Shown one piece after another: positions 6,266 through 29,506 of a DNA stretch of 31,714 bases. Position numbers and translations under genes: made by a program. Source of the stretch: an uncultured Aliarcobacter sp. (GTDB lineage: Bacteria > Campylobacterota > Campylobacteria > Campylobacterales > Arcobacteraceae); NCBI GenBank assembly GCA_947629065.1, contig CANRCH010000001.1, forward strand, positions 1-31,714, in the 5' to 3' direction. The notes under the pieces are model-generated. The model was not told the origin of the DNA and did no database searches. It saw only the letters and a list, made by a program, of their open reading frames with translations. Within the stretch, counting starts at the first letter, position 1, and the number at the start of each line of letters is the position of its first letter.

Positions 6266-6616
6266 TTACCATGCAATTGCAGCTCCACTAGCTCCCATTA
6301 TCTCTCTTGCATCTTCGCTCATCATATGTGGTTCCCACATAGGCTCAAAAACTAGATTTACTTTTGCTTCATCCACTTCATCTACAGCCATTGCAACATA
6401 TCGCACCTGTTCTAGTAAACTATCAGCCACAGGACATGCAGGGCTTGTAAGAGTCATATCTATTTCACAAAATAGGTAGTTGTTTCTCTCTTCTAGTTCA
6501 ATATTATAAATAAGTCCAAGATTGTAAATATCCACAGGTATTTCAGGGTCATAAACTTTTTTTATATTTTCTATTATTTTTTCTTTTATTTCATCTTTGT
6601 TAAAAATTCCGCTCAT
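6266..6616 (-). CDS. DUF59/MIP18-family Fe-S assembly factor (SufT-like)
   Basis: 116 aa, DUF59 family. The signature DPEIPVDIYNLGLIY (23-37) and the reactive cysteine in TSPACPVAD (C61) are present. Members help mature Fe-S proteins; SufT of Staphylococcus and the eukaryotic MIP18 are relatives. It is the last gene of the suf operon, 9 bases after sufE, which supports an Fe-S carrier or maturation role. The acidic stretch and GASGAAIAW tail have no motif I can assign. The family call is firm; the biochemical role is inferred from relatives and context. Confidence 0.85.
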   Translation of the reverse strand: MSGIFNKDEIKEKIIENIKKVYDPEIPVDIYNLGLIYNIELEERNNYLFCEIDMTLTSPACPVADSLLEQVRYVAMAVDEVDEAKVNLVFEPMWEPHMMSEDAREIMGASGAAIAW

Positions 6617-6625
6617 AATTGTTCC

Positions 6626-7033
6626 TTAATATTTTAAAGCATACTCTTTTATTTTTTTAATCATTCCAATAACTCCGCTTTGTCTGTTTGGAGTTATAAC
6701 TTCACTTAAATTTAGCTCTTTTACTATATCCATATCAATCTCTTTTAACTCTTCAATAGTAGAGTCTGAAAAAATTTGTAAGATTATATAAACTAAACCT
6801 TTTACTATAATTGCATCACTTGTTCCATAAAAAAACAGTCTATCGTCTTTTTTTTCACAAATTAACCAAACTTGAGAAGTACAACCATGAACTATATTTT
6901 CAGGTACTTGATTTTCTTCATCAAAAGGTGGCAGTTTTTTTCCTAAATCAATAATATACTCATATTTTGCCAACTCTTCATCAAAAAATTCTAAATCATC
7001 TTTTATATCTTCAACTCTTTGTTTTATACTCAT
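6626..7033 (-). CDS. sufE: SufE sulfur acceptor protein
   Basis: 135 aa. SufE takes persulfide sulfur from the SufS cysteine and passes it to SufB. The acceptor cysteine is C51 in the conserved VHGCTSQVW loop. Length and fold pattern match SufE; the N-terminal helix (DLEFFDEELAKYEYIIDLGKK) and the ITPNRQSGVIGM segment near the end are typical. It lies 6 bases after sufS and 9 before the DUF59 gene, so it is cotranscribed. Together with SufS it forms the sulfur-mobilising arm of the system in the cytoplasm. Confidence 0.94.
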   Translation of the reverse strand: MSIKQRVEDIKDDLEFFDEELAKYEYIIDLGKKLPPFDEENQVPENIVHGCTSQVWLICEKKDDRLFFYGTSDAIIVKGLVYIILQIFSDSTIEELKEIDMDIVKELNLSEVITPNRQSGVIGMIKKIKEYALKY

Positions 7034-7039
7034 TCTTTC

Positions 7040-8227
7040 TTAATCCTTTAACATACTTAAAGCTCTTTTTAGTGCAACTATTAATTTATCAATATCTTCA
7101 AAATCATTATAAAAAGCAAGACTTGCTCTTATAGTGCCTTTTATTCCAAGTTTTTTCATAATTGGTTGTGCACAATGATGCCCAACTCTTACTGCAATTC
7201 CCATTTTATCAAGTAAAATAGAGATATCATCATGCATAATTCCAGAAAAATTGAAACTTCTGCTTCCACTACAATTTTTTAAATCATTATAAAAAATAAT
7301 ATCTGGAAGCTTTTTTAATTCACTATCAAGATACTCTAAAAGCTCTTTTTTTCTTTTTTTAATTGTTTCATATCCAATAGAGTCAATATATTTTAAAGCC
7401 TCTTTAAATGCAATAACTCCAGCAATATTTTGAGTACCTGCTTCAAATTTATATGGTGCATCCAAAAAAGTAGTTCCATTTTCTAAATCAACTACATTTA
7501 TAGTCGCCCCTCCTGTTTGATATGGTTCAACTTCATTTAAATATTTTTCTTTAATATATATTGCTCCAACCCCCGTTGGTCCAAATGTTTTATGTCCTGA
7601 AACTGCAAAAAAATCACAATTTAAATCTTGAACATCAATTTTAAAACTGCTTAAACTTTGTGCACCATCAACTAAAACTGGGCTATCATATTTATGTGAA
7701 ATTTCACAAATTCTTTTAATATCATGAACTTTTCCAAAAGCATTCGTAACATGTGCAACGCTTACAAAAGAGTTTGGATTTTTCTTTAAAATCTCTTCAA
7801 AATGCTCAAAATCAAAATCCAAATTATCATCACACTTTACAACTTCAATTCCATTATTTAAACTTCTTCCTTGCATCTGCCAAGGAACAGTATTTGCATG
7901 GTGCTCAAGACTTGAAAGAATTATTGTTTTGAACCTTTTTCCAAAAGATGAGGCTATGAAATTTATACTTTCAGTTACACCTTTTGTGAAAATAATTTCC
8001 TCTTTTTTATTTGCATTTATAAAGTTTTTTAAATATTCTCTAGAAGATTCAAACTCAATTGTAGCTTTGTTTGCATCTCCAAAGCTACTTCTATGAGTAT
8101 TAGAACAGTAGTTTGTATAGTAATCAACTGTTGAGTCAATCACACTTTGTGGTTTTTGAGTAGTTGATCCATTATCTAGATAAACTGTTTTTGAGTTTTT
8201 AAAAAATGGAAAATCTTTTTTATACAT
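7040..8227 (-). CDS. sufS: SufS cysteine desulfurase (group II)
   Basis: 395 aa, PLP-dependent fold type I. It converts L-cysteine to alanine and leaves a persulfide for SufE. The PLP lysine is K213 in SGHKTFGPTG, and the catalytic cysteine is C352 in RVGHHCAQP. The RVGHHCAQP context and the short cysteine loop are those of SufS/CsdA (group II) rather than of IscS/NifS, so it should need SufE as partner. SLEHHAN and the substrate arginine in GTIRASLAFYN are conserved. The gene sits 19 bases after sufD and is translated in series with the rest of the operon. Confidence 0.96.
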   Translation of the reverse strand: MYKKDFPFFKNSKTVYLDNGSTTQKPQSVIDSTVDYYTNYCSNTHRSSFGDANKATIEFESSREYLKNFINANKKEEIIFTKGVTESINFIASSFGKRFKTIILSSLEHHANTVPWQMQGRSLNNGIEVVKCDDNLDFDFEHFEEILKKNPNSFVSVAHVTNAFGKVHDIKRICEISHKYDSPVLVDGAQSLSSFKIDVQDLNCDFFAVSGHKTFGPTGVGAIYIKEKYLNEVEPYQTGGATINVVDLENGTTFLDAPYKFEAGTQNIAGVIAFKEALKYIDSIGYETIKKRKKELLEYLDSELKKLPDIIFYNDLKNCSGSRSFNFSGIMHDDISILLDKMGIAVRVGHHCAQPIMKKLGIKGTIRASLAFYNDFEDIDKLIVALKRALSMLKD

Positions 8228-8246: not shown

Positions 8247-9287
8247 TTATATATAGTTTTCTTTTTTGTAATTCTCTACAAACTCTTTTATTTTTTCATC
8301 TTTTAAATTATCTTTAATTGAAGATTCAAAAGCTTCAAGCAACATCTCATAAGCATCCTTTTTGCTTATTCCTCTTGTTTGAAGATAGTATAATTGGTCT
8401 TTATCAAGAGTTCCTGTTGTTGTACCGTGACTAGCTTCAAGTTCATCTATGAAAATCTCTAAAAATGGTTGTGCAAAAACAACTGCATCATCACTTAAAA
8501 GTATTGAGTTACAGTTTTGGAATGCTTTTGAATAAAGCCCCGTTTGTGTAACAATAGAGTTTATTTTTACAACAGCTCTTGAACTATCTAAAAGTGAGTT
8601 TTTATAGTTTATATTACTTCTTGAACTTTCATTATTGTGTGTAGTTCTTACAAGTGTTGATGAGTTTGCACTAGATCTTAGTTTATTTAAACCATTCAAC
8701 TCATAGTTTACATGAAGTGCATCAATTTTGTTTTCAAAACTATTTACACTAAAACCATTTCCAAGTTCAAAGTTTGAAATCTCAACATTTGAATTGTTAT
8801 CTTGAACTGTTTTAAAAGCTAACAGAAAAGAGTTACTCTCTTTTATATCTTGAATTTTTGCATACTCTACATTTGCATTTTTCCCAGCTTTTATAACTCT
8901 ATTGCAAAGTAAACTGGAGTTGTTTTTATCTGTTACAAAAACTTCAATAATAGATGCTTTTACACCATCTTTTATATCTATTAAAAGGTTATTTGTAAAA
9001 AGTGTTTCATCCTCTTTTATTGAGTTTATTAAAATAATTGGCTCAAGAGTATCTTCTTTAATAGTTAAAACTTTTTGATTAGAGTTTATACTATTTGCAA
9101 TAGAAAAAAGTTTTGATTCATAAATTTCACTATCTTTTTGTTCTTTTAATTCTAAAGATAGTTTAGAAAACTCTAAAACTTTTTGCTCTTTAAAATCATA
9201 GTTAAAAAGAGGTGCAAAATCTATTTTTAAAAACTCTTCCTCTTTTTTTTGTGGTAAATTTAAATTTTCTAAATTAATTATCTGCAT
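8247..9287 (-). CDS. sufD: SufD, SufBCD scaffold subunit
   Basis: 346 aa. SufD pairs with SufB and two SufC subunits to form the Fe-S cluster scaffold. The C-terminal beta-helix and SufB/D core (about 150-320) end in LEIFIDELEASHGTTTG, which contains the histidine known to matter in the SufB-SufD interface. The following DKDQLYYLQTRGI segment, which binds SufC, parallels the corresponding SufB segment. The N-terminal third is poorly conserved, as usual. Its start overlaps the sufC stop by 14 bases, indicating translational coupling and fixing the SufC:SufD ratio. Confidence 0.92.
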   Translation of the reverse strand: MQIINLENLNLPQKKEEEFLKIDFAPLFNYDFKEQKVLEFSKLSLELKEQKDSEIYESKLFSIANSINSNQKVLTIKEDTLEPIILINSIKEDETLFTNNLLIDIKDGVKASIIEVFVTDKNNSSLLCNRVIKAGKNANVEYAKIQDIKESNSFLLAFKTVQDNNSNVEISNFELGNGFSVNSFENKIDALHVNYELNGLNKLRSSANSSTLVRTTHNNESSRSNINYKNSLLDSSRAVVKINSIVTQTGLYSKAFQNCNSILLSDDAVVFAQPFLEIFIDELEASHGTTTGTLDKDQLYYLQTRGISKKDAYEMLLEAFESSIKDNLKDEKIKEFVENYKKENYI

Positions 9288-10041
9288 TGTTTATTCCTAA
9301 TGCTTCAAAACCTTTTTCATCTAGTTCTAAAGCTAAAGAGTAATCTCCAGTTTTTGCAATTTTTCCATTACTTAAAATATGTACAAAATCAGGTTTAATT
9401 AACTCTAAAAGTCTGTCATAGTGTGTAATCATAAGAATAGATTTTTTTCCATCAAGCATAGAGTTTATAACATTTGCAACGATTTTAATTGCATCAACAT
9501 CAAGTCCACTATCAATCTCATCAAGCATAATTAAATCAGGACTTAGCATTAAAAGTTGAATAAGTTCATTTCTCTTTTTTTCTCCACCACTAAATCCATC
9601 ATTTAAATCTCTTTGTAGTAGTTTTCTATCTATTTCAAATTTAGAAGTTTCTTCTTTTACTAGCTTTAAAAACTGCATTGCATCAAGCTCATCTTTTCCT
9701 TCATAAGCTCTTTTTGCATTTATAGCTGTTCTTAAAAAGTAGCTATTATTTACTCCTGGAACTTCAACAGGGCTTTGGAAACTCATAAAAATTCCCTCAT
9801 TTGCTCTTTCGTCTGCATCCATTTCAGTCAAATCTTTACCTTTAAAAGTTATTTTACCACCTTCTACTTCACAGTCATAATGTGCTGCTAAAGTTTTAAC
9901 TAAAGTTGATTTTCCAGCTCCATTTACACCCATTAATGCATGAATTTCTCCTGGTTTTATCTCTAGATTTAGACCTTTTAAAATCTCATTTTCATTTATA
10001 CTAACTTTTAAATCTTCAATTTTCAATAATGTATTACTCAT
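9274..10041 (-). CDS. sufC: SufC ATPase of the SufBCD complex
   Basis: 255 aa, a soluble ABC-type ATPase. Walker A GVNGAGKST is at 38-46, the Q-loop is in SFQSPVEVPG, the ABC signature SGGE at 151-154, Walker B LIMLDE at 170-175, and the H-loop in MITHYDRLL. ATP hydrolysis drives the rearrangement of SufB-SufD during cluster assembly. The open frame extends to an ATG at 10065, but a minus-strand AAGGA stands 5 bases before the ATG at 10041 and gives the normal N-terminus MSNTLLKIEDL. It lies 125 bases after sufB, an unusually large gap for this operon, and that gap holds two stem-loops. Confidence 0.96.
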   Translation of the reverse strand: MSNTLLKIEDLKVSINENEILKGLNLEIKPGEIHALMGVNGAGKSTLVKTLAAHYDCEVEGGKITFKGKDLTEMDADERANEGIFMSFQSPVEVPGVNNSYFLRTAINAKRAYEGKDELDAMQFLKLVKEETSKFEIDRKLLQRDLNDGFSGGEKKRNELIQLLMLSPDLIMLDEIDSGLDVDAIKIVANVINSMLDGKKSILMITHYDRLLELIKPDFVHILSNGKIAKTGDYSLALELDEKGFEALGINNADN

Positions 10042-10092
10042 ATTTATCCTTAAAAAATGTCCCATTTTTGAAGGGAACCTTTTACATATTTA

Positions 10093-10166: not shown

Positions 10167-11603
10167 TTATCCAACACTTCCTTCTAGTGAAATATTTAAT
10201 AACTCTTTTGCTTCAGCAGCAAACTCCATTGGTAACTCTTTTAGAACCTCTTTACAGAATCCATTTACAATCATAGCAATAGCATCTTCTTCATCTATTC
10301 CTCTTTGGTTTAGATAAAATAGCTGCTCTTCAGAAATTTTTGAAGTAGTCGCTTCATGTTCAATATTTGCACTACTATTTCTAATCTCATGATATGGATA
10401 TGTATGTGCTTGAGATTTATGACCAATTAAAAGTGAATCACACTCAGATATATTTCTTGCATTATGGGCATTTTTACCAACTCGCACCAATCCTCTATAA
10501 GCATTTATCCCTTTCATGGCTGAAATACCTTTAGAGATAATTGTAGATTTTGTATTTTTACCTAAATGTATCATTTTTGTACCAGTATCAGCTTGTTGTG
10601 CTCTTGATGTAATTGCAACAGAGTAGAACTCTCCTACACTATTATCACCTTGTAAAACACATGAAGGGTATTTCCAAGTAATACTTGAACCAGTTTCAAC
10701 TTGAGTCCAAGATACTTTAGAGTTATCACCTTTACATAAAGCTCTTTTTGTAACAAAGTTTAAAATTCCACCTTTTCCTTCATTATCACCTGGATACCAG
10801 TTTTGAATTGTTGAGTATTTTATATGTGCATCTTTAAGTGCAACAAGCTCAACAACAGCTGCGTGAAGTTGTCTGTCATCTCTAGATGGTGCTGAACACC
10901 CTTCATTATAAGAGACATAAGAACCCTCATCACAAATAATTAAAGTTCTTTCAAATTGCCCCGTATCAAGTGCATTTATTCTAAAATAAGTTGATAACTC
11001 CATAGGGCATCTTGTATTTTTTGGAATATAAACAAAACTTCCATCTGTAAAAACAGCACTATTTAAACAAGCAAAATAGTTATCAGTTACAGGAACAACA
11101 CTTGCTAAATATGTTTTTACAAGATCTGGAAATCTATGTGCAGCTTCGCTGATTGAGCAAAATATAATTCCTAATTTTTCAAGCTCATCTTGATATGTAG
11201 TTTTAATAGAAACTGAATCAAACACCGCATCAACTGCAACACCTGCTAACATTTTTTGCTCTTCAAGAGGAATTCCAAGTTTTTCATAAGTTTTTAAAAT
11301 CTCAGGATCAACTTCATCTAAAGACCCCAAAGGCTTTTTTGGAGCAGAAAAATATGCATAATCTTGATAATCGATTGTTGGATATTTTAAATTTGTCCAA
11401 GTTGGTTCTTCCATTTTTAGCCATTTTTCATAGGCTTTTAGTCTGAAATCTAATAGAAATTCAGGCTCCTCTTTTTTTGCACTAATTGCTCTAATTACAT
11501 CTTCATTTAAACCTTTTGCAAAAGTATCACTTTGAACTAAAGTTTCAAATCCTAATTTATAATCTTGGCTTAAAATGTCATGTATTTCTTGATTTTCACT
11601 CAT
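10167..11603 (-). CDS. sufB: SufB, SufBCD scaffold subunit
   Basis: 478 aa. SufB receives sulfur from SufE and builds the cluster with SufC and SufD. The SufB/D core carries [20 protein letters not shown], with the conserved cysteine of the ECDS motif, and ends in the SufC-binding region [13 protein letters not shown]. The stretch [15 protein letters not shown] is a SufB hallmark absent from SufD. The frame is open to 11642, but the minus-strand GGAG before the ATG at 11603 and the N-terminus [11 protein letters not shown] favour 11603. It is the first gene of the operon, and a 25-bp palindrome lies 28 bases before its start. Confidence 0.96.
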
Positions 11604-11631
11604 GACTTCTCCATAAAAAATTTTAATATCT

Positions 11632-11656
11632 AAATAGGACAAATTTTATCCTATTT
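11632..11656. promoter_or_regulatory. 25-bp palindromic operator before sufB
   Basis: Perfect 8-bp arms AAATAGGA and TCCTATTT flank a 9-bp AT-rich centre that is itself nearly symmetric; only one pair besides the centre base fails to match. The element lies 28 bases upstream of the sufB start. A near copy is found at 11762-11786. Symmetry and location fit an Rrf2-family (IscR/SufR-type) or Fur-like regulator of Fe-S biogenesis; which one is inference. A possible minus-strand -10 (TATACT, complement of 11674-11679) would place the operator just downstream of transcription start. Confidence 0.6.
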
Positions 11657-11761
11657 GGAATAGTATCTAAATAAGTATATAATGTAAAGGCATAAACTTC
11701 TATGAAGTAAAATATTTTTAACCAAATATTATTTGAATTGATGAAAAATAGCCATTTACAA

Positions 11762-11786
11762 AATTAAGACAAATCTTATCCTATTT
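11762..11786. promoter_or_regulatory. Second copy of the suf operator, before the NifU-like gene
   Basis: This element matches the 11632-11656 element at 22 of 25 positions in the same orientation, including a shared 11-base run TTATCCTATTT. Its left arm is less symmetric. It lies 57 bases before the NifU-like start and just upstream of TAAAAT (11791-11796), a possible -10, so it would overlap that promoter. Confidence 0.5.
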
Positions 11787-11843
11787 TAAATAAAATATCA
11801 AAATGAATTAAAAAATAATAAAATTTTTAGGAAAAACAATTAA

Positions 11844-12806
11844 ATGATAACAACAGGATTAAATTTTAATAAATGGGGTGAATACTCAAAAGAGATTAGA
11901 AAAAGAGTGATTAACCCAAAACATCAAGGTGAAATAACAGAAGAATATGCAGAAAAACTTTATTCAAGAATTATTGTAACTGAACTTGATGCTGATTTAT
12001 ATGATGATGCTATTAAGCTATTTTGGGCAGTTGATAACAATGAAAACATATTAGATGCTAAATTTAAATCATTTGGAAGAGATTTAACAGTCTCTGTTTA
12101 TGACATTATGACTGAACTTTGTATAGATAAATCTATAGATGAAGTTTCAAAATTGACAAAAATGGATTTAGAAAAAGCATTAAGAGATGATGAAAACACT
12201 CCTAGTGTTCCAGCTGATACTATGGAAGTTTTTGAGTTGGCAATTGCAGTTATTAAAAAAGCAATTAGAAATTATAAAGGAGTTACAATTGACTCTTTTA
12301 GTGATGATTATGTAATTTGTGATTGTGCAAGAGTAACTTTGGGTGAGATTAAAAAAGTTATTGAAGAGGAAAATATTACAAGAGTAGAGGATTTAGTAAA
12401 CTCTACAAAAGCAGGTGCTTTTTGTAAATCTTGTCTAAAACCAGGTGGTTTAGAAGAAAAAGAGATATATTTAGTTGATATTATAAAAGAGTTAAATGAA
12501 AAAAGACAAAGAAATCAAGAGTCAATAGAAAATGGACAAGAGGGTGCTTTTGAAACTTTAAGTAAAGAGAAACAAATTTCTATAATTGAAGAAGTGTTGG
12601 ATGAAGATGTAAGACCAATGCTTTTGATGGATGGTGGAAATATGGAGATTTTAGACATAGTTGAAAGTTCACCACACTTAGATTTATATATTAGATATTT
12701 AGGTGCCTGTAATGGATGCAGTGCTGGAAGTTCAGGAACACTTTATGCAATTGAATCAATTTTACAAAGAAAAGTATATGAAAACTTAAGAGTTTTACCA
12801 ATATAA
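11844..12806 (+). CDS. nifU: NifU-like Fe-S protein with degenerate IscU domain
   Basis: 320 aa with three domains. Residues 1-140 align to the IscU scaffold domain (WGEYSKEIRKRVINP), but all three cluster cysteines are gone: Y53 replaces the first, R79 stands in FGRD where FGCG is usual, and E128-V129 replace the HC of the K-x-H-C-S motif. Residues about 155-200 are the BFD-like [2Fe-2S] domain with C159, C161, C194 and C197. Residues about 245-320 are an Nfu domain with C289-x-x-C292 in GACNGCSAG. It diverges from sufB and shares an operator. The likely role is Fe-S carrier or electron-transfer partner, not de novo scaffold. Confidence 0.9.
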   Translation: MITTGLNFNKWGEYSKEIRKRVINPKHQGEITEEYAEKLYSRIIVTELDADLYDDAIKLFWAVDNNENILDAKFKSFGRDLTVSVYDIMTELCIDKSIDEVSKLTKMDLEKALRDDENTPSVPADTMEVFELAIAVIKKAIRNYKGVTIDSFSDDYVICDCARVTLGEIKKVIEEENITRVEDLVNSTKAGAFCKSCLKPGGLEEKEIYLVDIIKELNEKRQRNQESIENGQEGAFETLSKEKQISIIEEVLDEDVRPMLLMDGGNMEILDIVESSPHLDLYIRYLGACNGCSAGSSGTLYAIESILQRKVYENLRVLPI

Positions 12807-12870: not shown

Positions 12871-13503
12871 ATGTTTACAATTTACAATAACGGAATTGTT
12901 GATTTTAAATCCAATAATAATCCACAATATAATAAAGTAGAGCAAACTCCATCTTCTTCTGCAAATTTTGAGCTAGAAGATGAAATAGCACAATATTTTA
13001 ATAAAAGAGAAAAAGAGAAAAGTAGTGCAAAAAATGAAGAGTATCTATCTTCATATAAAAAGGTTGCTCAAATAAATCAATCAAATAATATCTATTTTGT
13101 AAAAGATATTATGGCTACAAATTTCATTTCTATTGAAAATAGTGCTACTTTAAAAGATGCATATCTTTTGATGGAAGAAAATAAAATAACTCAAATGCCT
13201 ATAGTAAATGAAGACAAAAAAATAGTTGCACTTTTAGATTATAGATTTATTTTAAATACAATAATAAAAAATCTTAAAACAGCGGATGATTTATTAGATA
13301 GAAGATTATGGGAATTTAAATTCCCAGAAACAATTACAACACATCCAGAAACAGAGCTTAAAGAGTTAATTAAAATAATGTTTACTATGAGATTAGGTTT
13401 AGTATCTGTTGTAGATGATGAAGGTGTATTGGTTGGATTAGTTTCTAAAAGTTATATTTTTCAGGCTTTAGGAACATTCTCTAATTTAGAGTTTTGGACT
13501 TGA
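12871..13503 (+). CDS. CBS-domain pair protein
   Basis: 210 aa. Residues 1 to about 75 are polar and low in complexity, without a known motif. Two CBS domains follow, about 76-135 (KDIMATNFISIENSATLKDA) and about 148-207 (TITTHPETELKELIKIMF). CBS pairs bind adenine nucleotides or similar ligands and usually act as sensors for a partner. No catalytic or membrane part is present, so this is a stand-alone Bateman module of unknown target. AAGGAT stands 6 bases before the ATG. It follows the NifU-like gene by 64 bases with no obvious terminator, so cotranscription is possible. Confidence 0.85.
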   Translation: MFTIYNNGIVDFKSNNNPQYNKVEQTPSSSANFELEDEIAQYFNKREKEKSSAKNEEYLSSYKKVAQINQSNNIYFVKDIMATNFISIENSATLKDAYLLMEENKITQMPIVNEDKKIVALLDYRFILNTIIKNLKTADDLLDRRLWEFKFPETITTHPETELKELIKIMFTMRLGLVSVVDDEGVLVGLVSKSYIFQALGTFSNLEFWT

Positions 13504-26931: not shown

Positions 26932-29506
26932 ATGGAAAACCTTTTTGAAAATCAAGATATTATAGATGTAAATATTGAAGATAGTGTAAAAACTTCATAT
27001 TTAGACTATTCAATGAGTGTTATTATTGGACGAGCATTACCAGATGCAAAAGATGGATTAAAGCCTGTTCATAGAAGAATACTTTATGCAATGCATGAAT
27101 TAAATGTTACAAGTAAAGCAGCATATAAAAAATCTGCAAGGATTGTTGGAGATGTTATAGGAAAGTATCACCCTCATGGAGATACATCTGTTTATGATGC
27201 ATTAGTTCGTATGGCACAAAGCTTCTCTATGAGAGCACCACTTGTTGATGGGCAAGGAAACTTTGGATCGGTTGATGGTGATAATGCAGCTGCTATGAGA
27301 TATACAGAAGCTAGAATGACTAGAATAGCTGAAGAGGTTTTAAGAGATTTAGACAAAGATACAGTAAATTTTGTACCAAACTACGATGATACTATGAAAG
27401 AACCGTCAGTTCTTCCAACAAGAGTTCCTACACTTTTACTAAATGGAAGTGAAGGAATTGCTGTTGGTATGGCTACAAAAATTCCACCACACAACCTTGG
27501 TGAACTTCTTGATGCAATTTTATATCTAATTGATAATCCAGATGCAGTTGCTAGTGATTTAATGGAGTTTATTCAAGGTCCAGATTTCCCAACAGGTGGA
27601 ACAATTTTTGGAAGACGAGGAATAATTGATGCTTATAATACAGGTCGAGGACGTGTGAAAATAAGAGCAAAACATCATATTGAAACAAGAGCAAAAAAAG
27701 AGATTATTGTAATTGATGAGCTTCCATACCAAGTAAATAAAGCAAGATTAATTGAGCAAATAGCAGAACTAGCACGTGATAAGCAAATTGAAGGAATTTC
27801 AGAAGTAAGAGATGAGAGTGATAGAGAAGGAATTAGAGTTGTAATTGAACTAAAAAGAGACGCAATGGCTGAAATAGTTCTAAACAATCTATACAAATCA
27901 ACTCCAATGGAGACAACATTTGGAATCATTTTACTAGCAGTTCATAATAAAGAACCAAAAATATTCACTCTTCCAGAGATTTTAAACATTTTCTTATCTC
28001 ATAGAAAAACTGTAATTATTAGAAGAACAATTTTTGATTTAGAAAAAGCAAAAGCAAGAGCACATATTTTAGAGGGTTTAAAAATTGCTGTTGATAATAT
28101 TGATGAGGTTGTAAAAATCATTAGAGCTAGTTCTAATGATGCTGAAGCAAAACAGAATTTAGAGAATAGATTTGATTTAAGCCCAATTCAATCTCAAGCA
28201 ATTTTAGATATGAGATTAGGAAGATTAACAGGTCTTCAAAGAGATAAACTAGAGGCTGAATATCAAGAACTTATGATTTTGATTGCTGAACTTGAATCAA
28301 TTTTAAGAAGTGAAGATAAATTAAATGAGATCATAAGAGAAGAGCTAAATGAAATCAAAGAGAAATTCTCAAATCCAAGAAGAACTGAAATTGAAGACTC
28401 TTATGATGAGATTGATATTGAAGATTTAATACCAAATGAACCAATGGTTGTAACAATTACTCACAACGGTTATGTAAAAAGAGTACCTATAAAAGCCTAT
28501 GAAAAACAAAAAAAGAGGTGGAAAAGGAAAAGTTGCAGTTACAACTCACGATGATGATTTTATTGAAAGATTTTTCGTAAGTAATACCCACGATACTCTT
28601 ATGTTTGTTACAAATATGGGACAACTATATTGGCTAAAAGTATATAGAATTCCTGAAGGAAGTAGAACGGCAAAAGGAAAAGCGGTTGTAAATTTAATTA
28701 ATTTAAGACCTGATGAAAAAATTATGGCAATTATTACAACAAGTGATTTTGATGAGAGTAAATCATTAGCATTCTTTACGAAAAATGGGGTTATAAAAAG
28801 AACAAACTTAACTGAGTTTAGTAATATTAGAAGTAATGGAGTAAGAGCTATTGTTTTAGATGATGATGATGAAGTTGTAACAGCAAAAATTACAAATCCA
28901 GATACTCAATATTTAATGATATTTACAAGTCTAGGACAATGTATTAGATTTGAAGTTGATAAAACAAGAGAGCAAGGAAGAAGCACAAGAGGTGTTAGAG
29001 GAATCAAATTTAAGATTGAAAGTGACTTCGTTGTTGATGCAGAAATTATTGAAAATGAAGAGCAAGAGATTTTAACTGTATCTGAAAAAGGTATAGGAAA
29101 ACGAACAACAGTTGAAGAGTATAGGCTTACAAATAGAGCAGGAAGTGGAGTAATTGCCATGAAATTATCTCCTAAAACTGGAAATATTATTGGTGAAGTT
29201 TTAGTTGATGAAACACAAGATTTAATGCTTTTAACATCTATTGGAAAAATGATTAGAGTTGATATGCAAACAATTAGAAAAGCTGGAAGAAATACAAGTG
29301 GAGTAATAATTGTAAATGTGGATAAAGAGGATAAAGTTGTATCTATTGCAAAATGTCCAAAAGAGGATGAAGAGATAGAGTTAGATGAAAATGGAAATAT
29401 CATCAGATACAATGAAGATGGTGAAATTGAAACAAATGAAGAAGAGAGCAACAACTCAAATCTTTTAGATATTATTGAAACTAAAGAAGAAAAAGAAGAG
29501 GAGTAA
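26932..29506 (+). CDS. gyrA: DNA gyrase subunit A, reading frame broken by one base
   Basis: Two overlapping frames together encode GyrA. The first (26932-28554) gives the whole breakage-reunion core: quinolone region [13 protein letters not shown] with T85 and D89, and catalytic Y124 in RYTEARM. After the run of seven A (28508-28514) it reads [11 protein letters not shown] and stops. Removing one A restores QKRGGKG, the GyrA box, and joins the second frame (to 29506), which encodes the DNA-wrapping C-terminal beta-pinwheel and an acidic tail. The corrected protein would have 857 aa, a normal length. T85 is the wild-type state; T85I is the known quinolone-resistance change in Arcobacter. As gyrA is essential, a sequence error is likely. 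Confidence 0.92.
28508..28514 (+). other. A7 run at the gyrA frameshift site
   Basis: Seven A follow C28507; six would keep the frame through Q-K-R-G-G-K-G. The required shift is +1 (skip one base). The heptamer A-AAA-AAG is present in the zero frame, but it favours -1 slippage, which would not restore the frame. Confidence 0.85.

Follow-up and report, generated by a model that had tools for sequence, protein, structure and literature searches.

The stretch of DNA analysed here, 31,714 nucleotides from an uncultured Aliarcobacter sp. (contig CANRCH010000001.1; the 'window'), carries a nifU-like gene (11844..12806, plus strand) whose 320-residue product lacks all three scaffold cysteines of its IscU domain and keeps the cysteines of its two other Fe–S domains. 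The finding is real and clade-wide, has a like case in another family, and the cause first proposed for it in a sequence-only reading of the window, a takeover of cluster assembly by SUF, is partly wrong: the Cys-less proteins are set apart by a missing NifS and not by SUF alone. The reading that we favour, with some reservation, is that of a former scaffold that would have become a SUF-coupled carrier after the loss of NifS.

A NifU without scaffold cysteines

The three Pfam domains of the protein, each above its cut-off, follow the order of a full NifU: NifU_N (residues 13-146; 11880..12281), the [2Fe-2S] ferredoxin-like Fer2_BFD (157-198; 12312..12437) and NifU/Nfu (248-317; 12585..12794), all on the plus strand. 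Aligned with 81 Cys-bearing rows, the ligand columns of the CGD, FGCG and KMHCS motifs read Y53, R79 and V129, and none of the three cluster cysteines of the IscU domain is left. Both other Fe–S sites are complete; C159, C161, C194 and C197 of the ferredoxin-like domain and the C289-x-x-C292 motif of Nfu are invariant in a four-row alignment. The NifU_proper equivalog model gives 126 bits, under its cut-off of 273.3, and the YhgI_GntY model (TIGR03341) gives 23.3 bits against 269.35, so that by this model, and with NifU_N at its N-terminus, the protein is not an NfuA. It is a NifU by descent that lacks the defining feature of a scaffold.

The source is a draft genome of 1.72 Mb in 206 contigs, 87.8% complete; a sequence comparison gives as its named relatives Arcobacter cryaerophilus LMG 9065, A. 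vandammei and an Aliarcobacter metagenome-assembled genome. The frame has no internal stop. A frameshift, already discounted in the sequence-only reading from the open frame and the surrounding conservation, or a sequencing error is rejected: all three cysteines are also missing from 13 other genomes, which excludes chance or a local error.

Cysteine loss coincides with the absence of NifS

NifU homologues were sought in 104 genomes of the family, and a full NifU was covered in 96; the eight without a full match (G024, G048, G060, G070, G072, G098, G100 and G103) were set aside. All three scaffold cysteines are absent in 14 of the 96, namely the window genome and 13 others, all in its genus, and all are present in the other 82. 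In 14/14 Cys-less proteins the ferredoxin and Nfu domains retain their cysteines, which is compatible with the carrier or redox protein envisaged in the sequence-only reading. In the window genus, NifU_N matches number one per genome in 30/31, the exception being G024, where no NifU is matched, the suf cluster begins at the end of a contig and some of sufS reads N. The Cys-less protein is therefore not a spare copy, and a second, intact IscU elsewhere is rejected. A foreign paralogue is likewise rejected, the trees grouping the window NifU with the resident family.

NifS separates the two groups completely. With the epsilon-type NifS model, a strong match occurs in 82/82 Cys-bearing genomes (65 above cut-off; the other 17 score below it, with E < 1e-115) versus 0/14 Cys-less ones, in which the best matches (1e-29 to 1e-38) are SufS or another class-V protein. 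In the window genome, within its 87.8% completeness, no partner NifS was found and only the SufS-like open reading frame (ORF) matched (3.5e-29). The nifS slot adjoining nifU falls inside the window and is empty, and the 13 kin genomes likewise lack nifS.

That SUF takeover alone relaxed the IscU site appears improbable. SUF does accompany the loss everywhere: sufB is above cut-off in 77/104 family genomes, including all 14 Cys-less ones and G024, and in the 105 genomes whose full NifU was covered, 96 of them from the family and nine from elsewhere in the class, a Cys-less NifU never occurs without SUF. However, the 77 also include 62 of the 82 Cys-bearing genomes, relatives of the very kind that the sequence-only reading had named beforehand as evidence against its proposal, so SUF is not sufficient, and the groups are separated completely by nifS status. 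The co-occurrence with SUF thus holds and the causal part of the proposal does not; SUF is contradicted as a sufficient cause and may be a precondition.

The suf–nifU locus

The gene diverges from a full suf operon, as had been claimed. On the minus strand lie sufB (10167..11642; TIGR01980, 635.8 bits, cut-off 346.4; in-frame ATG at 11603), sufC (9274..10065; ABC_tran and position in the operon), sufD (8247..9287; SUFBD_core; TIGR01981, 180.5 bits, cut-off 222), a sufS-like cysteine desulfurase gene (7040..8227; TIGR01979, 439.1 bits, cut-off 475.1; the sole NifS-model match in the draft genome), sufE (6626..7033; PF02657) and a sufT-like gene (6266..6616; DUF59, FeS_assembly_P). SufB is above its NCBIfam cut-off; SufD and SufS are below theirs yet above Pfam cut-offs. 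The window thus holds SufB, C and D with a desulfurase and a sulfur carrier, the components of a SUF system.

The gap between the sufB ORF and nifU (11643..11843) is the position of nifS in Cys-bearing relatives, for example G002, which have nifU-nifS and then a divergent sufB. In 14/14 Cys-less genomes, sufB and nifU are <300 bases apart with no intervening nifS. A motif scan finds two operator-like palindromes (TARGAYA-N5-TATCCTA), one on the sufB side (11635..11653) and one on the nifU side (11765..11783); with at most one mismatch allowed, the two sites give three matches, one of them being hit on both strands, versus 0.08 expected. Both palindromes, one per side of the sufB/nifS gap, occur in four of six Cys-bearing gaps (G002, G003, G006 and G013); G010 has one, and G001 has two near sufB in the 400 bases covered of a longer gap. 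Because the palindromes flank the sufB/nifS gap in relatives, nifU seems to have inherited the former nifS control region.

Downstream of nifU, a CBS-domain gene (12871-13503), fast-evolving as nifU is, is matched in 17/27 other loci (several of these loci short) at 29–46% identity. Further along the window, gyrA (26932-29506) consists of two overlapping ORFs of 540 and 335 residues. It is a single frame of 813–900 residues in 29/30 relatives, the G018 copy being cut across two contigs; the split is probably an assembly indel in the draft genome.

Constraint and predicted fold of the emptied domain

Loss of the cysteines alone, with the fold kept, had been proposed; the fold stands by prediction, and the restriction to cysteines falls. 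Of 79 IscU positions with at least 97% conservation across the 81 Cys-bearing rows, all 14 Cys-less proteins differ at 22 and all 14 retain 21; 16 of the 22 fall at 49-53, 79-86 and 124-135, around the three ligand motifs. Structure prediction returns an intact IscU fold in a weak model (mean predicted local distance difference test score 60.6, predicted template modelling score 0.43).

These patterns bear on plain decay, in which the IscU domain would be an eroding relic after NifS loss, kept through its fusion to useful ferredoxin and Nfu domains. The stem of the Cys-less NifU clade is strongly accelerated (0.62 changes per column versus 0.035 for the median end branch), and the 21/79 conserved IscU positions kept compare with 32/47 in Nfu (and 18/22 in the ferredoxin domain). 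Within the clade, by contrast, nine Cys-less pairs give the IscU domain a ratio of non-synonymous to synonymous rates (dN/dS) of 0.05-0.16, inside the range of the ferredoxin and Nfu domains (0.02-0.16); nine Cys-bearing pairs give 0.00-0.12, and the pairs, having genomes in common, are non-independent. With no stop in any of the 14 frames and the fold predicted intact, decay is rather unlikely. The low dN/dS makes present-day relaxation of the IscU site doubtful, and the Cys-less NifU is still maintained by selection.

New chemistry, in which the emptied site would bind a metal, a sulfur donor, SufE or SufBCD and serve a new enzymatic or regulatory job, draws on residues that persist or recur: D55 is retained in 14/14 Cys-less proteins and H128 in 11/14, and ELHN and FATG are recurrent motifs at the old ligand positions among several of the 13 proteins from the other genomes. 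The window protein, however, has E128 and R79, and no replacement ligand set is common to all 14; we give this explanation little credence.

Phylogeny of the Cys-less clade

The Cys-less genomes are monophyletic in the NifU (support 100/99) and SufB+SufC (90/82) trees, and also in the GyrA (100/97) and GyrA+SufBC (100/100) trees, each of which includes 13 of the 14 (G018 is missing). The placement of the window differs among genes. On the NifU tree it lies outside the other 13 (100/98), at a point where long branches meet and which drew a program warning; the approximately unbiased (AU) test rejects placing it among the 12 genomes that group together in the SufBC tree (p 0.0012). In the GyrA, SufBC and GyrA+SufBC trees it is nested inside the Cys-less group, and with the GyrA+SufBC data the tree with the window outside is not rejected (p 0.107). 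Its Nfu domain is 75–82% identical to Cys-less kin versus 64–70% to Cys-bearing proteins; its IscU domain retains eight ancestral residues lost by all 13 others and has three derived residues in common with them. The cysteines may have been lost twice, in parallel, after one nifS loss; the window nifU may have been transferred from an unsampled sister lineage; or long-branch error may mislead the NifU tree.

A second lineage in the class

In a sample of 397 genomes from the class, NifS is above cut-off in 349 and SufB in 75. Among genomes chosen for a weak or missing NifS match, scaffold cysteines are also gone from NifU in two genera of another family (f4), g23 (4/5 genomes covered, the G106 NifU left out) and g50 (2/2). 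Upstream of the Cys-less NifU lies a NifS-like ORF without the SAHK lysine and the GSACAS cysteine (g23, 4/5, with the G228 NifS left out; g50, 2/2), which we take to be the pyridoxal phosphate lysine and the catalytic cysteine of NifS; of the intact controls, G298 and G273 were left out of this comparison and G235 was included. Such pairs lie at L221:4465-6611 (G196), L222:4410-6571 (G301) and L257:5453-7620 (G158). By its residues, the pair is apparently a dead desulfurase and a dead scaffold, retained in SUF-bearing genomes. All seven g23 and g50 genomes have SUF, so 6/6 Cys-less f4 proteins covered are SUF-associated. Mapped onto the genomes, cysteine loss thus goes with NifS absence in the arcobacters or with loss of NifS active-site residues in f4. 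In f4 genus g64, G298 bears SUF, keeps its NifU cysteines and has a NifS match at 6.0e-198. A joint clade of both Cys-less lineages is not rejected on the NifU tree (AU p 0.169); a separate loss in f4 is argued from the different families, the Cys-bearing relatives in each and the different fate of nifS.

In seven genomes of f8 genus g31, SUF is present, no NifS-model match occurs and the NifU_N ORFs are short only; G196 and G301 have one match each, the degenerate NifS. Loci L253, L254, L256 and L258 (f4) and L255 (f8 g31) hold sufB, C and D with a sufT-like gene, and sufE in L253, L254 and L258. ORF lists inspected by eye give no sufS adjoining the suf genes in these five loci, L256 being noisy. 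As SMS is reported in excerpts of PMC12192291 to use free sulfide, free sulfide as the sulfur source would be one answer for these SUF systems without an adjoining sufS. Short IscU-like ORFs (~157–240 residues) stand at the centre of L163-L173, L175 and other loci, the first ligand cysteine mostly replaced and the other two kept; a ~280-residue ORF often adjoins them, with no Pfam match in the one case tested.

Proposed history and function

Canonical NifU of Helicobacter, Campylobacter and Azotobacter has the same three-domain order and, in relatives, the same place by suf, and the window protein likewise keeps both other Fe–S sites. Unlike it, the window protein lacks the three scaffold cysteines and conserved neighbours, and its NifS partner was not found. 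SufU likewise has an IscU fold, is not a scaffold and works in a SUF context; its zinc is bound by conserved cysteines. Sulfur transfer by SufU needs its zinc ligand, according to excerpts of PMC8593673, whereas the window cysteines are gone. The same excerpts describe Escherichia coli NfuA as an Nfu domain with an A-type domain 'degenerated' for want of a ligand cysteine, both being necessary: likewise a former cluster-binding domain fused to a cluster-carrying Nfu. The dead domain of the window protein is, in contrast, IscU-like, with a [2Fe-2S] domain in between. The excerpts also state that Nfu binds a [4Fe-4S] cluster and passes it on and that the [2Fe-2S] cluster of NifU may supply electrons (PMC8593673). 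H. pylori NifU has 29 interactions with Fe–S proteins in a table of PMC8144621.

The following history is proposed. The ancestor would have had NIF (nifS-nifU) and SUF adjacent and divergently transcribed. Loss of nifS in the clade ancestor would have left nifU downstream of what had been the control region of nifS, as locus comparison supports. With its sulfur donor gone, the IscU site presumably ceased to build clusters; the three cysteines, a lysine and residues of the adjoining loops disappeared, whereas the fold, by prediction, was kept. From the published domain roles and interactions, the remaining protein would most likely work like NfuA, using its dead IscU domain to dock targets or partners, its Nfu CxxC to carry a [4Fe-4S] cluster from SufBCD to apo-proteins and its [2Fe-2S] domain to provide electrons. 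That it helps the more recent SUF system to deliver clusters is probably why the Cys-less NifU was kept.

Several points weigh against the proposed carrier. Its role is argued from homologues and not from biochemistry. From the window genome alone, 87.8% complete, a nifS elsewhere is possible. The window IscU domain is 48–49% identical to three Cys-bearing proteins versus 36–40% to 9/13 Cys-less ones, and this closeness to Cys-bearing relatives puts a single shared cysteine loss in question. The dN/dS of Cys-less IscU domains, though low, tends above that of Cys-bearing pairs, and the structural model is weak. The g50 NifU has lost its ferredoxin cysteines too, keeping the Nfu CxxC alone, so retention of the redox domain is not universal. 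A short Nfu-like ORF in the window genome (G000:C100, 94 residues) is a possible alternative carrier.

A broader and more tentative reading, to which we lean less than not, is that in bacteria with both NIF and SUF, NIF parts cut off from their sulfur supply were converted to a SUF-coupled carrier instead of being discarded. Campylobacteria would have taken this course at least twice: the arcobacters via nifS loss, and f4 g23 and g50 via loss of NifS active-site residues, the dead NifS staying next to the Cys-less NifU. Scaffold-to-carrier conversion may then also have produced the degenerate domain seen in E. coli NfuA.

Significance

Excerpts of PMC8144621 describe epsilonproteobacteria, with Helicobacter or Campylobacter as examples, as having NIF alone; in the class sample, SufB is above cut-off in 75/397 genomes. 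No Cys-less NifU was found announced in literature searched by titles and abstract openings, with few subscription papers covered. The group offers a natural experiment on the replacement of one iron–sulfur assembly system by another. As close relatives have NIF and SUF intact, or NifS gone and NifU emptied, or, in another family, NifS and NifU both present and apparently dead, the sequence of events and what each domain of NifU does are directly testable. Annotation as NifU does not by itself imply a scaffold and, if the broader reading holds, evolution could take the route from scaffold to carrier repeatedly.
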